Source: Chloroflexi bacterium 44-23 (GTDB lineage: Bacteria > Chloroflexota > Anaerolineae > Anaerolineales > Anaerolineaceae). From it: a stretch of 64,000 nt of DNA. Below the pieces are notes generated by a model. That model searched no databases and had not been told where the DNA came from. It saw only the letters and a program-made list of their open reading frames with translations. The translations under genes were made by a program, and so were the position numbers. The stretch's first letter is position 1. The number at the start of each line of letters is the position of its first letter. Positions 30,664-36,006 of this stretch are shown here, one piece after another. Where the stretch lies: assembly GCA_001899005.1 (NCBI GenBank), contig MKUW01000019.1, positions 175,212 to 239,211 on the forward strand. Direction: 5' to 3'.

Positions 30664-31410
30664 TTACTTCTTTTTTCTCTCGATATAGATTCTGACTGCC
30701 TTGGGTATAAATTCCGCCAGGCGGGGGTCAAAAGCATCGAAGGTCTTTTTGAAGCGCGGGTCGTCATTGTAGCGATCGGCCAGCCCGAGCAGTTGTTCTT
30801 CATTGGGACTCCAGAAATTTTGGATGTGGTGATGCCAGCGTGCAATTGCGGTTTGTACATTCTCGGAATCTGCGCCCTGATCAATCGCATCAGCAAGTGC
30901 CTGGTAAATCTCATTCCCTTCCGCCAGAATTGAATCCTTTTTTGATTGGCTGTAATTCTTCCACTTTCGATTGGATTCTTTTACGGTTTCAGGGTCATAC
31001 ATTTGTATGGCTTCTTTTTCATATTCTGCTTGCAGTTCTTCAGAAAAAGCTTGAAAAAATTGTTTTTTGTTCATTTTCTTTTCTCCTTGGATGTGTTGAA
31101 TGGTGTTTTCTACTGTCGCCACCAGACTTTGGAGCCGATGGATGCGTTTTTGTAGCTCTTGCTTGTGGGATTCAAGCGCTTCAACCAAATTGTACGAAGG
31201 TTGGGCAAGAATCTGCTTAATTTTTAGTAGCGGCATGTTCAATTCACGATAAAAAAGGATTTGCTGCAGCTGCAAGACGCACGCATCGTCATAATAACGA
31301 TAACCATTTTCTGCCACCCGGGATGGTTTTAAAAGGTCAATCTGGTCATAGTAGTGAAGTGTGCGCGGGCTGATACCCGCTAGTTTGGAAAGCTGCTTTA
31401 CCGTTAACAT
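30664..31410 (-). CDS. MerR-family regulator with TipAS domain
   Basis: 248 aa. The N-terminal winged helix MLTVKQLSKLAGISPRTLHYYDQIDLLKPSRVAENGYRYYDD (residues 1-42) is followed by a coiled-coil dimerisation helix (about 75-110). The TipAS antibiotic-recognition domain (FFQAFSEELQAEYEKEA...W..., about 118-245) completes the chain. TipAL/Mta relatives bind hydrophobic or thiopeptide-like drugs and activate efflux and their own gene. The promoter ahead of it has the 19-bp spacer of MerR-controlled promoters, and transcription would start at or next to the ATG, so autoregulation and leaderless translation are likely. No transporter is adjacent. Confidence 0.9.
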   Translation of the reverse strand: MLTVKQLSKLAGISPRTLHYYDQIDLLKPSRVAENGYRYYDDACVLQLQQILFYRELNMPLLKIKQILAQPSYNLVEALESHKQELQKRIHRLQSLVATVENTIQHIQGEKKMNKKQFFQAFSEELQAEYEKEAIQMYDPETVKESNRKWKNYSQSKKDSILAEGNEIYQALADAIDQGADSENVQTAIARWHHHIQNFWSPNEEQLLGLADRYNDDPRFKKTFDAFDPRLAEFIPKAVRIYIERKKK

Positions 31411-31716: not shown

Positions 31717-31745
31717 TTTACAAAGTCCTTTTTTGGGAATATAAT
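31717..31745 (+). promoter_or_regulatory. promoter of the first mgtE transcript
   Basis: TTTACA (31717-31722), a 17-bp spacer, then TATAAT (31740-31745). The start would be near 31752, giving a leader of about 168 nt before the mgtE ATG. Confidence 0.75.
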
Positions 31746-31786
31746 ACATCCGGATTTAACACTTAAGACTACCAAATGTGGAGACT

Positions 31787-31852
31787 ATGGAAGAGCAACA
31801 AACTCCCGGTGACCGGGATCCTGAACCTGATAGTTGTAAGCCAATTAACTAA
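31787..31852 (+). CDS. acidic/proline-rich leader peptide upstream of mgtE
   Basis: A 21-codon ORF with a proper ribosome site (GGAG four bases before the ATG) about 35 nt after the predicted transcription start. The peptide contains TPGDRDPEPDS, with six Asp/Glu and four Pro in total. Acidic-plus-proline nascent chains such as the EPDP start of enterobacterial MgtL destabilise ribosomes at low Mg2+. Here the ORF stops at 31852, six bases before the anti-sequestor arm. It is likely a Mg2+-sensing leader of the Mg2+ transporter gene; this is inferred from composition and layout. Confidence 0.7.
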   Translation: MEEQQTPGDRDPEPDSCKPIN

Positions 31853-31857
31853 GCGAA

Positions 31858-31912
31858 CCCTGGTCTTCTGTTAACGACAGCTAACCGTCTCCAGGGCTGA
31901 GCGCCCCGGAGG
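31858..31912 (+). promoter_or_regulatory. Shine-Dalgarno sequestor and competing anti-sequestor, mgtE leader
   Basis: The sequestor pairs CTCC-A-GGGC (31889-31897) with GCCC-C-GGAG (31903-31911), loop TGAGC. It buries the mgtE Shine-Dalgarno GGAGG (31908-31912). The anti-sequestor pairs CCCTGG (31858-31863) with CCAGGG (31891-31896), which destroys the sequestor. A small CTGT/ACAG hairpin (31868-31880) fits inside. There is no T-tract, so control would act on translation. A ribosome at the leader-peptide stop (31850-31852) would cover 31858-31863. Confidence 0.65.
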
Positions 31913-31919
31913 TGTCATA

Positions 31920-33269
31920 ATGCTGACCATCAATACGGATACAATTTTAGCGCAAATTCAGGCAGCGTTGGAAAAGAATGATGTTAATTCGGCTTTAAAA
32001 GTGCTGGAGGATTTGCGCACACCTGATCAGGCAGAAGTCTTTTACGAATTGGAAGATGATGAAAAGATAGCCTTGCTGCCACATCTTGACCCTTCTGTTT
32101 CCGCAGACATTTTGGAAGAATTAGAAGATGAAGAAGTGGCCGAACTGGTCAGCCAACTCGATTCGGATAGTGCAGTTCGCATTTTGGACGAGATGGATCC
32201 GGATGAGGCAGCCGACTTCCTAGGGGATGTAAGCCGTGAGCAGGCTGAAAATTATCTGGCTCAAATGGAAAACCCGCAGGAAGTACGCCCCTTGATGATT
32301 CACGCCGATGACAGCGCCGGTGGCTTGATGACATCTGAATTTATTGCCCTGCGCACCCGTATGCGTGCCGGAGATGCCATCAATGTTTTACGTACGTACA
32401 AACCTGATAGCGAAGAAATATATTACCTCTTTGTCGTTGATTCGGAAGACGTTCTCTCAGGTGTGATCGGTTTACGAGATTTAATTATTTCAGACCCGGA
32501 TGTAATTTTGGGAGAAATCATGGATCCGCAGGTTGTATCCGTCAATGCCGGTACGGACCAGGAAGAATGTGCCCGGATCATTGCCAAGTATGACCTGCTC
32601 GCTCTACCGGTCGTGGATAGTTCCCGCAGATTGATTGGTGTTATCACGGTAGATGATGTCATTGATGTACTCGAAGAAGAAACCACGGAGGATTTCCAGC
32701 GTTTGGGTGGTGCAGAACCATTAGATCAATCCTATCTCAATACCGGCACCTGGATGATCGCAAAAAAACGTATCGGCTGGCTGCTGCTCTTGTTTCTGAC
32801 AGGTAGTCTGACCGGTACAGTCATGCGTATGTTTGAAGCAGAATTAGCTGCGGTGGTGGCATTGGCTTATTTTATTCCATTGCTGATTGGTACCGGTGGG
32901 AATGCTGGTTCGCAAACCACCAGCACCATCATCCGCGCTTTGGCAGTTGGAGATATGGATGTTTCTGATGGATTGGTATCGCTCTGGCATGAACTGCGCG
33001 TTGGTTTGATACTTGGCCTGGGAATGTCCGGTTTTGCGTTTATTCGAGCCATCACCTGGGGCACCACACCCCAATTGGCCTTTGCGGTTGCTTTTTCAAT
33101 TATTGCCATTGTTATTTGGGCGAATGCCTCCGGTGCAGTACTGCCGTTGCTGGCAGCCAGATTAAAAATTGACCCAACGGTAGTATCCGGGCCGGTCATG
33201 AGCACTCTGGTAGACGCAACAGGTTTGTTTATCTACTTTACAATTGCAAAATCTGTAATTGGTGTCTGA
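31920..33269 (+). CDS. mgtE: magnesium transporter MgtE (first of two)
   Basis: A 449-aa MgtE channel. The N-terminal acidic superhelical domain (about residues 10-130) carries repeated LEELEDEEVAELV and DEMDPDEAADFL motifs. Two CBS domains (about 135-255) follow, and five transmembrane helices (about 285-449) contain PLLIGTGGNAGSQTTSTIIRALA and the C-terminal DPTVVSGPVMSTLVDATGLFIYF. The cytosolic domains sense Mg2+ and gate the pore. GGAGG is seven bases before the ATG and is buried in the leader hairpin. A second mgtE follows 171 bases downstream. Confidence 0.95.
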   Translation: MLTINTDTILAQIQAALEKNDVNSALKVLEDLRTPDQAEVFYELEDDEKIALLPHLDPSVSADILEELEDEEVAELVSQLDSDSAVRILDEMDPDEAADFLGDVSREQAENYLAQMENPQEVRPLMIHADDSAGGLMTSEFIALRTRMRAGDAINVLRTYKPDSEEIYYLFVVDSEDVLSGVIGLRDLIISDPDVILGEIMDPQVVSVNAGTDQEECARIIAKYDLLALPVVDSSRRLIGVITVDDVIDVLEEETTEDFQRLGGAEPLDQSYLNTGTWMIAKKRIGWLLLLFLTGSLTGTVMRMFEAELAAVVALAYFIPLLIGTGGNAGSQTTSTIIRALAVGDMDVSDGLVSLWHELRVGLILGLGMSGFAFIRAITWGTTPQLAFAVAFSIIAIVIWANASGAVLPLLAARLKIDPTVVSGPVMSTLVDATGLFIYFTIAKSVIGV

Positions 33270-33316
33270 AGAAGTGATCACTATGAAAACATATAACCGA
33301 ATTCGAAAGTAAACAA

Positions 33317-33385
33317 ATGAGAAAGAAAAAACCACCCAGAAAAAGGGACCAATATCCCTTGCTAAGTAGACGAAATAAGGGCTGA
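33317..33385 (+). CDS. candidate leader ORF upstream of the second mgtE
   Basis: A 22-codon ORF beginning MRKKKPPRKRDQYP. It is basic with three prolines including PP, and its ribosome site is weak. Its TGA (33383-33385) overlaps the anti-sequestor arm GGGCTG (33379-33384). The position mirrors the leader peptide of the first mgtE although the sequence does not. A shorter ORF (33283-33312) also precedes it. Confidence 0.4.
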   Translation: MRKKKPPRKRDQYPLLSRRNKG

Positions 33386-33434
33386 ATGCTAAGAGAAGCG
33401 GCATAAACTTCCAACCGGCAGACAGCCCGGGAGG
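33379..33434 (+). promoter_or_regulatory. Shine-Dalgarno sequestor and competing anti-sequestor, second mgtE leader
   Basis: CTTCC (33408-33412) pairs with GGAGG-side bases 33430-33434, with an inner GGC/GCC (33417-33419 with 33425-33427), masking the Shine-Dalgarno GGGAGG (33429-33434). The alternative GGGCTG (33379-33384) with CAGCCC (33423-33428) is a perfect 6-bp helix that breaks it. The logic is the same as in the first mgtE leader. Confidence 0.5.
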
Positions 33435-33440
33435 ATGTTT

Positions 33441-34790
33441 ATGCTGAAGTATGATGCAAGCTCTTTAATCGAACAAATCCAGGCTGCCCTGGAGAATAAT
33501 GATATCCAATCTGTCATACGGATTCTTGAGACCTTGAAATCTGCAGACCAGGCAGATATTTTCTCTGAATTGAATGATGATGAGAAAATGGCGATCCTTC
33601 CCCATTTGAACCCGGCCTTTTCAGCCGATTTGCTGGAAGAAATGGAGGATGATGAAGTCGCCGAATTAGTTGGGGGATTACCATCCGAACACGCCATTCG
33701 TATTGTCGATGAAATGGACCCTGACGATGCCGCCGACTTTCTTGGAGATATTCCTGATTTTCAAGCTAATGCAATTCTAGCGGGTATGGAAAATCCGGAG
33801 GATGTGCGCCCATTGCTGCTACATCCCGATGATAGCGCTGGCGGATTGATGACCTCTGAATTTCTGGCACTGCGCCGCAAGATGACAGCCAGCGATGCAT
33901 TACAGGCGATTCGGGAATGGAAACCGGATAATGATGATATTTACCATCTGTTTGTCGTGGATGGGCAGAATTACCTGGTGGGGGTAGTCAGCCTGCGCCA
34001 GTTGATTACATCTGATCCAAAAGATTTACTGGAAACATTTATGGATCCGCAGGTTATCGCTGTTACCACCGGTACTGATCAGGAGGAAGTTGCCAGACTT
34101 TTCGCTCGTTACGACCTTCTCGCTTTGCCGGTTGTCGATCACGATCGCAAGCTAATCGGTGTTATCACCATTGATGATGTGATTGACGTTTTGGAAGAAG
34201 AGACTACCGAAGATATTCAGCGATTGGGTGGTGCCCAACCGTTGGAACAAGCCTATCTCAATACCAGCCCGTTGAGGATAACAAAGAAAAGAATCGGTTG
34301 GCTGCTGCTCCTGTTTTTAACCGAAAGCCTGACCGGTACAGTTTTACGCCATTTTGAAAGCGAGCTGGCCTCGGTTGTAGCACTCTCGTTTTTTATCCCG
34401 TTGTTGATTGGAACCGGCGGAAATGCCGGTTCTCAAACAACCAGCACCATTATTCGTGCTCTGGCGATCGGTGATATTCAAATCGGCGACGCAATCAAAT
34501 CTCTCTGGCATGAATTTCGTGTTGGCTTGATGCTGGGGGTTGGAATGTCCGCTCTTGCCTTTGTACGGGCCTTGACGTGGGGCTCATCACCGCAATTGGC
34601 AGTAACTGTATCCGTTGCAATCCTCACAATTGTGATCTGGGCTAATATGCTGGGTGCTATTTTACCGATTTTGGCCGCCAAATTAAAGATTGATCCGACT
34701 GTTGTTTCCGGTCCGGTTATGAGCACGCTGGTAGATGCCACCGGTTTGTTTATTTACTTTTCGATTGCTAAAATTGTAATTGGATTGTAA
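33441..34790 (+). CDS. mgtE: magnesium transporter MgtE (second of two)
   Basis: A 449-aa MgtE, the same length and domain order as the first: N-domain with LLEEMEDDEVAELV and DEMDPDDAADFLGD, paired CBS domains with HPDDSAGGLMTSEF, and a membrane domain with LIGTGGNAGSQTTSTIIRAL and DPTVVSGPVMSTLVDATGLF. ATG 33441 is preferred over 33435 because GGGAGG lies six bases before it, whereas it abuts the earlier ATG. It is a clear tandem duplicate with considerable divergence in the N-domain and CBS region. Confidence 0.94.
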   Translation: MLKYDASSLIEQIQAALENNDIQSVIRILETLKSADQADIFSELNDDEKMAILPHLNPAFSADLLEEMEDDEVAELVGGLPSEHAIRIVDEMDPDDAADFLGDIPDFQANAILAGMENPEDVRPLLLHPDDSAGGLMTSEFLALRRKMTASDALQAIREWKPDNDDIYHLFVVDGQNYLVGVVSLRQLITSDPKDLLETFMDPQVIAVTTGTDQEEVARLFARYDLLALPVVDHDRKLIGVITIDDVIDVLEEETTEDIQRLGGAQPLEQAYLNTSPLRITKKRIGWLLLLFLTESLTGTVLRHFESELASVVALSFFIPLLIGTGGNAGSQTTSTIIRALAIGDIQIGDAIKSLWHEFRVGLMLGVGMSALAFVRALTWGSSPQLAVTVSVAILTIVIWANMLGAILPILAAKLKIDPTVVSGPVMSTLVDATGLFIYFSIAKIVIGL

Positions 34791-35571: not shown

Positions 35572-36006
35572 ATGCTGAAAGTCAAAGAATTAATTCTATT
35601 AAAGGATAACCCGGTCTGGACTATTTCACCCGATGAAAGCGTTAGCAAAGCTGTGCAACTGTTAACTGAAAAGAAAATTGGGGCACTGCCGGTGGTGGAA
35701 AATTCAAGTGTGATTGGGATCATTTCGGAACGTGACATTGTTCGTGCTGTGGATCGTGAAGGAACTGCCGCTCTCAATTTATTGGTTGAACAGGTGATGA
35801 TTAAAGAAGTAATTGTTATTTCCGCAGAAACCACTTTGGAAGATTGTATGAATTTAATGACTGATTACCACTTCCGGCATCTACCGGTTCTGGAGGGAGA
35901 TGAGTTGGTTGGAATTGTTTCAATTCGAGATTTGATTAAGAAAGTACTGCCCCAACGTGATGCTTTGATTGAGGATCTGGAAAAATATATCCGCGGTGGG
36001 CATTAA
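35572..36006 (+). CDS. CBS-pair domain protein
   Basis: A 144-aa stand-alone Bateman module: CBS1 about residues 8-65 (SKAVQLLTEKKIGALPVVENSSVIGIISERDIVRAV) and CBS2 about 75-130 (TTLEDCMNLMTDYHFRHLPVLEGDELVGIVSIRDLIKKV), then a short acidic helix. Such proteins bind adenine nucleotides and regulate partner enzymes or channels. GGGAAAGGAAC precedes the ATG. It is paralogous to the protein at 37405-37848. Nearness to two MgtE proteins, which also carry CBS domains, is notable but does not prove partnership. Confidence 0.88.
   Translation: MLKVKELILLKDNPVWTISPDESVSKAVQLLTEKKIGALPVVENSSVIGIISERDIVRAVDREGTAALNLLVEQVMIKEVIVISAETTLEDCMNLMTDYHFRHLPVLEGDELVGIVSIRDLIKKVLPQRDALIEDLEKYIRGGH

Follow-up and report, generated by a model that had tools for sequence, protein, structure and literature searches.

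A candidate Mg2+-responsive leader peptide and Shine-Dalgarno switch upstream of mgtE in Anaerolineaceae and across their class

How is an mgtE gene controlled in a bacterium whose mgtE leader matches no known riboswitch? The window (the whole 64,000-nucleotide stretch analyzed here) raises this question. The relatives of its genome are Anaerolineaceae MAGs (Chloroflexota), and it encodes a protein with MgtE_N, a CBS pair and the MgtE transmembrane domains, all above the Pfam cut-offs (PF01769, PF03448, CBS), with a tandem mgtE paralogue downstream at 33441-34790. The mgtE pair is flanked by a divergent MerR/TipAS-type regulator (30664-31410, - strand) and by a two-CBS-domain protein (35572-36006, + strand). 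As is proposed for the leader described here, the M-box (ykoK) governs mgtE from the 5' leader, with expression off at high Mg2+, but the M-box mechanism is RNA-only. Rfam searches of the leader (at E<=5), of 20 loci and of the whole window gave no family, M-box included, that matches the leader, the sole match of the leader search being a chance-level one to LhrC. A known riboswitch of the M-box type was therefore rejected as the identity of the leader, and with it the explanation that the original prediction had named as a possible replacement for its own.

The features of the leader are collected in the table below. On direct reading of the sequence, the promoter, upstream open reading frame (uORF), GGAG, sequestor and anti-sequestor were all found where they had been predicted; promoter-type sites as such were found twice against 1.0 by chance. 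The uORF stop and the mgtE start are separated by 67 nt. The 5' arm of the anti-sequestor starts at the sixth base past the uORF stop, within the footprint of a ribosome standing at that stop. As the sequestor includes the anti-sequestor 3' arm CCAGGG, the two hairpins are mutually exclusive, and this part of the original prediction holds.

Features of the mgtE leader in the window (R1, covariance model; A2 and A3, genus and class alignments; SD, Shine-Dalgarno sequence)
Feature	Position	Strand	Evidence
Sigma-70-like promoter TTTACA-N17-TATAAT (TTTACA 31717-31722, 17-nt spacer, TATAAT 31740-31745)	31717..31745	+	sequence; matches 11/12 consensus letters
Whole leader element matched by R1	31769..31925	+	22.5 bits, E=5.4e-4
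uORF SD GGAG	31780..31783	+	sequence; TGGAGA invariant in genus alignment A2
21-codon acidic/proline uORF, product MEEQQTPGDRDPEPDSCKPIN (ATG at 31787, TAA stop at 31850-31852)	31787..31852	+	class-wide conservation of the stop position and of acidity at residues 2-3
Hairpin H1 CCCGG-TGA-CCGGG, within the uORF	31805..31817	+	compensatory change in congeners; class-wide pairing
Anti-sequestor (AS) 5' arm CCCTGG	31858..31863	+	sequence; AS helix conserved in class
Sequestor (SQ) hairpin CTCC-A-GGGC (31889-31897) / GCCC-C-GGAG (31903-31911), buries the mgtE SD	31889..31911	+	sequence; SQ helix conserved in class
Anti-sequestor 3' arm CCAGGG, common to the sequestor	31891..31896	+	sequence; class-wide AS helix
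mgtE SD GGAGG	31908..31912	+	sequence; nearly invariant in A3
mgtE, Mg2+ transporter/channel, presumed regulated gene (start codon ATG at 31920)	31920..33269	+	MgtE_N, CBS x2, MgtE

We consider it probable, by analogy with MgtQ and MgtL, that this leader is a translational attenuator of mgtE that senses Mg2+ by nascent-chain-induced ribosome drop-off. When Mg2+ is sufficient, ribosomes would complete the uORF and terminate at 31850-31852, where the stop-site ribosome would cover 31858-31863 and keep the anti-sequestor from forming; the sequestor would then close on the mgtE SD and mgtE would be off. At low Mg2+, the acidic residues near the N-terminus of the peptide, which contains DPEPD (E2 and E3, then D9 and D11-P-E-P-D15), would destabilize the translating 70S ribosome and cause early drop-off, so that the anti-sequestor could form during transcription of the SD, pre-empt the sequestor and leave mgtE to be translated. 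We infer uORF translation, Mg2+-dependent drop-off, the direction of the switch and its co-transcriptional opening, and Mg2+ is proposed as the signal because of the associated genes (mgtE and corA) and the acidic N-terminus. Mg2+-dependent drop-off in attenuators of the MgtL/MgtQ type is counteracted by bL31. To our knowledge, Mg2+ sensing by ribosome destabilization is known for mgtA, mgtCBR and corA, and in enterobacteria only.

The closest parallel in design is the MgtQ-mgtB system of the Salmonella mgtC-mgtB intergenic region, where Asp2 and Glu5 of a short acidic uORF control mgtB through exclusive SD hairpins: stem-loops 1:2 and 3:4 exclude 2:3, and 3:4 hides the mgtB ribosome-binding site (PMC8092293). 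The exclusive segments of the class leaders follow this scheme. In MgtQ (mgtB), MgtL (mgtA) and CorL (corA), efficient translation of the uORF goes with low expression of the transporter (PMC8092293, PMC11282234, PMC11552253), as is proposed here. MgtB, however, is a P-type ATPase encoded within an operon of enterobacteria behind an 8-codon uORF, whereas here the target is MgtE, the leader precedes a first gene in Chloroflexota, the uORFs have 16-35 codons, the stop-site ribosome would cover the anti-sequestor and the sequences are unrelated. MgtL of E. coli and Salmonella shares the acidic-proline nascent chain, its EPDP causing ribosome drop-off at low Mg2+, and both its inverse relation between uORF translation and transporter expression and its Mg2+ signal are proposed here too; its output, however, is Rho-dependent transcription termination, while the conserved output here is SD sequestration (PMC11282234, PMC11552253). 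CorL, from the same two species, also lets a uORF control a Mg2+ transporter in response to Mg2+, as proposed here, and starts with TTG, weak starts being frequent in our leaders as well, but it has few acidic or proline residues, is Rho-dependent and is enterobacterial (PMC11552253). Compared by eye with the enterobacterial mgtL, mgtP, mgtQ and corL leaders, the present one has only its acidic/proline character in common with them and shows no sign of homology to MgtQ or MgtL; we treat it as an analogue and not as a member. A candidate RNA before mgtE, the SRC-65-1 motif of Thioalkalivibrio, has a last stem that holds the SD and AUG; as described in the accessible part of that report (PMC11109978), it is set apart from our leader by its distribution (32 examples, all from a single genus that belongs to another phylum), by its proposal as a riboswitch and by the lack of any mention of a uORF there. 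The searchable open literature, which takes in few preprints and no subscription papers, yielded no earlier description of a leader peptide for mgtE. The original prediction had seen here an independent invention for MgtE in another phylum, acting on translation. The element proved class-wide instead of local, and a precedent for acidic-uORF control at the level of translation exists in MgtQ-mgtB. What would be new is acidic-leader control on the MgtE transporter family and its class-wide scale in Chloroflexota.

The original prediction depended on conservation of the uORF, and congeners do retain it, with products MDALQTPGDRDPEPDKRSINS, MDEQQNPGDREPLSDKCTLNL and MDEQQPPAEREPHSY.. encoded at the same site. 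In H1, CCCGG..CCGGG becomes CCCGC..GCGGG in congeners, a compensatory change which turns G-D-R into A-E-R and retains the acidic charge. The sequestor pairing varies among congeners between GGGC/GCCC, GGGT/GCCC and, in L008, GGGT/ACCC. Four congeners (L007, L009, L033 and L008) differ in their uORF ends. In the first three, the uORF continues across the anti-sequestor arm to a stop 44 nt upstream of mgtE; by the usual footprint, a ribosome at that stop would still cover the arm. In L008 (reverse strand), a deletion takes out the uORF stop together with the anti-sequestor 5' arm, so that the acidic uORF runs on in frame into mgtE (MDEQQPPAEREPSRVNHPGGVSMLKIN..). Unless this is an assembly fault, the switch would here have been lost or rewired naturally.

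The same arrangement was observed upstream of MgtE homologues of ~53-65% identity from many families of the class. These leaders comprise a uORF (for example MDEIKPEDGPPSSRKGHLSRLRPANRIV, MDDSSLPSSQGHVS.. and MNEKAEPGGSHRQMPPLSTE) with an internal hairpin, a CCCCC immediately past the stop, and GCCTCCGGGG / CCCGGAGG covering the SD. In an alignment of 33 class leaders (A3), the SD hairpin SQ is 93.6% paired, AS 80.6%, the class-wide counterpart of H1 72.6% with changes on both sides, and H2, a pairing of the uORF 3' end with the segment past the stop, 73.0%; H2 is poorly formed in the window, where the R1 alignment has several non-standard pairs. The helix covariation score was above those of all 500 shuffles and of all slid controls, the shuffles and the slides both leaving the relatedness of the sequences in place. 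The SD hairpins expected near mgtE in Anaerolineae are thus kept across families and covary.

A covariance model (R1) was derived from 30 leaders belonging to other families; the genus of the window was excluded. On the 64 kb, its only significant match is the window leader, and it also matches the leaders of the congeners at the homologous place. Among 298 class genomes, it gave 36 matches at E<=0.01, of which 30 immediately precede mgtE; in one of these 30 cases, the encoded product is just 42% identical to the window protein. A further match (L365:174-345, 30.6 bits, uORF MDDESASRSSNTRRVVCCQSGRRIA) precedes by ~200 nt a CorA-family gene (553-1482; PF01544, E=1.5e-57), CorA being a Mg2+ transporter unrelated to MgtE. 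In L363 and L364, which belong to different families, the R1 leader is followed by an MgtE_N fragment, which is clear in L364 but at best a remnant in L363, and then by an ABC permease (BPD_transp_1). This arrangement could represent a novel transporter linked to Mg2+ or an mgtE that has decayed. One of the remaining matches stands before nothing recognizable, and two are weak and chance-like. In 400 phylum-wide genomes, R1 matched in three, each time ahead of mgtE. In the spacer before the second mgtE of the window (33270-33434), the R1 search gave no match. That spacer contains the short basic ORFs MKTYNRIRK and MRKKKPPRKRDQYPLLSRRNKG, as well as a hairpin, GGGACCAATATCCC, similar to H1 of the class leader.

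The uORF start is NTG in 33/33 leaders (9 ATG, 18 GTG and 6 TTG). Codon 2 encodes D, E or N in 32/33 and codon 3 encodes Asp or Glu in 30/33, with all four third letters used. The distance from the stop to the anti-sequestor arm is -9..+1 nt in 29/33 leaders, compared with 11/33 and 1/33 in the other frames, and the predicted placing of the stop next to this arm is therefore a constant of the class. uORFs of the M[DEN][DE] type occur in 42/138 class mgtE upstream regions versus 2.3% of dinucleotide shuffles and 0/31 control genes, a count to be read with the facts that the criterion was set after part of the data had been seen and that the sequences are related. Around 60-70% of the class mgtE genes have no recognizable uORF. 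A search with the regex [DE]P[DE] alone misses most class peptides, as the class signature is M[DEN][DE]..P/SS; proline is present in most of these peptides, not in all. Tested along its full length, the uORF showed no excess of synonymous change (22 synonymous codon differences, with a mean of 22.2 in permutations, against 70 nonsynonymous ones), and purifying selection on the whole peptide is not claimed. Because this test is flat, what appears to be kept is initiation, the acidic N-terminus and the position at which translation ends, and peptide-level constraint, as read from the sequences, seems confined to these. Of the acidic/proline peptide originally predicted, acidic residues 2-3 thus proved conserved, while the peptide as a whole shows no visible constraint. 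Strong ribosome destabilization is also not assured, since many class peptides (MDDSSLPSS..) are less acidic and less proline-dense than MgtL.

When transcripts ending before the SD were folded, an anti-sequestor of at least 3 bp formed in 23/38 leaders that were free and in 1/38 with a ribosome at the stop. In this pre-SD folding the stop-site ribosome blocks the anti-sequestor, so finished translation would favor the off state and early drop-off the on state. Equilibrium folding of the full leader with ribosome masks (no pseudoknots) left the SD paired in every ribosome state. A purely thermodynamic switch was rejected, as the sequestor wins at equilibrium in all states; the on state would therefore have to arise co-transcriptionally, or with the help of initiating ribosomes or of a pseudoknot between H2 and the anti-sequestor. 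The pre-SD folding is in this way compatible with the ribosome-dependent choice of structure that had been predicted, but the full leader shows no switch at equilibrium.

The covariation and the stop position suit any uORF sensor equally, and the leader could be an attenuator that responds through translation to a cue other than Mg2+ (elongation speed, Pro or Ser tRNA charging, EF-P or ABC-F), with Mg2+ acting indirectly at most. Pro and Ser-Ser (PSS) recur in the peptides, as do AGT serine codons, and ATP and charged proline-tRNA are further signals for the mgtCBR leader of Salmonella (PMC8092293). We regard this as unlikely, although worth keeping in mind, as the best-kept residues, 2-3, are acidic and neither proline nor serine, and as the transporters encoded by the regulated genes have two unrelated folds and Mg2+ in common, an argument for Mg2+ as the variable.

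Sensing by the RNA itself, that is, a Mg2+-binding riboswitch of a new class whose aptamer overlaps an incidental or modulatory uORF, appears improbable. It would account for the conserved helices (H1, H2, AS and SQ), of which H2 and AS may form a pseudoknot, and would agree with mgtE being a classical M-box target and with the riboswitch-candidate mgtE motif of Thioalkalivibrio (PMC11109978). Few nucleotides are invariant beyond the helices, however, and none looks like an aptamer core; H2 is weak in the window and Rfam gave no match. A riboswitch would not explain either why the uORF frame, the NTG start, the acidic codons and the stop position are kept, or why leaders of other phyla have just peptide character in common.

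Plain translational coupling, in which the uORF would serve solely to deliver ribosomes that open up the leader or start again at mgtE, with no sensing involved, is very improbable: the short gap of 67 nt and the in-frame fusion in L008 would suit it, but it needs neither an anti-sequestor under the stop-site ribosome nor acidic residues, and a ribosome at the stop favors the sequestor, the opposite of coupling. That a functionless chance ORF happens to lie among chance hairpins can practically be dismissed, for even if the R1 match to the window is modest (22.5 bits), conservation in the genus and the class, the match of a held-out model and the specificity for mgtE all speak against it.

If Mg2+ sensing by nascent-chain-induced drop-off is indeed what these leaders do, ribosome stability would be a widespread Mg2+ gauge, and the control of MgtE in lineages free of the M-box would be explained. 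The leaders also offer many natural variants in start codon, acidic pattern and switch type with which to probe which features of the nascent chain matter.

Dissimilar uORFs of acidic or proline character also precede mgtE outside the class. In a set of 30 Thermaceae mgtE leaders, those of Meiothermus and kin (L230-L248) have a uORF that starts with GTG, reads MEDHSSSRR.. or MEDSSSSRQ.. and is preceded by a strong SD, as well as an SD hairpin CTTCCTTC/GAAGGAGG; in Thermus (L251-L259), a uORF M..ALPSSPRP (LPSSPRP) lies immediately ahead of a hairpin. These mgtE leader peptides are apparently unreported before. Thermus and Meiothermus are genetically tractable, and the best structural model of MgtE is from Thermus. 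Four Glycomyces-type genomes have a uORF MGDDP(S/G)SSRDT.. before mgtE. In Lachnospiraceae, uORFs such as MEHSSKSYSTDGPLPGRQ or MKSNSKSGSSDTPVPGRS were found in 8/30 loci (L260, L262, L263, L266 and L269-L272), mostly with a GGTGG SD and a D-x-P-L/V-P-(G)R core, and several of them overlap the mgtE start. As far as tested, these out-of-class leaders are not homologous RNAs; what they share is the acidic/proline (often Ser-Ser-Arg) character of the peptide and the target gene. It is quite possible, and we propose it tentatively, that bacteria free of the M-box (Chloroflexota, Thermaceae, Glycomycetaceae and Lachnospiraceae) have repeatedly evolved acidic/proline leader peptides as a general means of cytosolic Mg2+ sensing for mgtE. 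Such a general scheme would have a recurrent core, acid-(Pro)-Ser-Ser-Arg/Lys or D-x-P-x-P, and outputs that in Chloroflexota are translational and, in order-level relatives, of the terminator type. Were it true, the ribosome would be the default Mg2+ sensor, with MgtE under nascent-chain control.

Closer to the window, a held-out order-level mgtE set had a uORF in 5/24 cases versus 8.3% of shuffles; where another ORF lies immediately upstream, order-level lineages mostly have no uORF. The mgtE genes of L312-L321 stand right behind a short conserved ORF, a putative NIL-domain gene, and are mostly without a uORF, which suggests that they are under another control. Another MgtE subfamily in the order of the window has the uORFs MNTDPDS.., MSTDPDS.. 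and MAQESAVDPDLDPDS.., several of them followed by hairpins resembling intrinsic terminators. uORFs of the DPDS type, or other acidic/proline ones, followed by such terminator-like hairpins were observed in L013, L015, L016, L022, L026 and L027. In L016 and L022, a CGCGCCCC stretch in the uORF is complementary to a downstream GGGGCGCG hairpin arm, a complementarity which suggests a putative transcriptional version of the switch.
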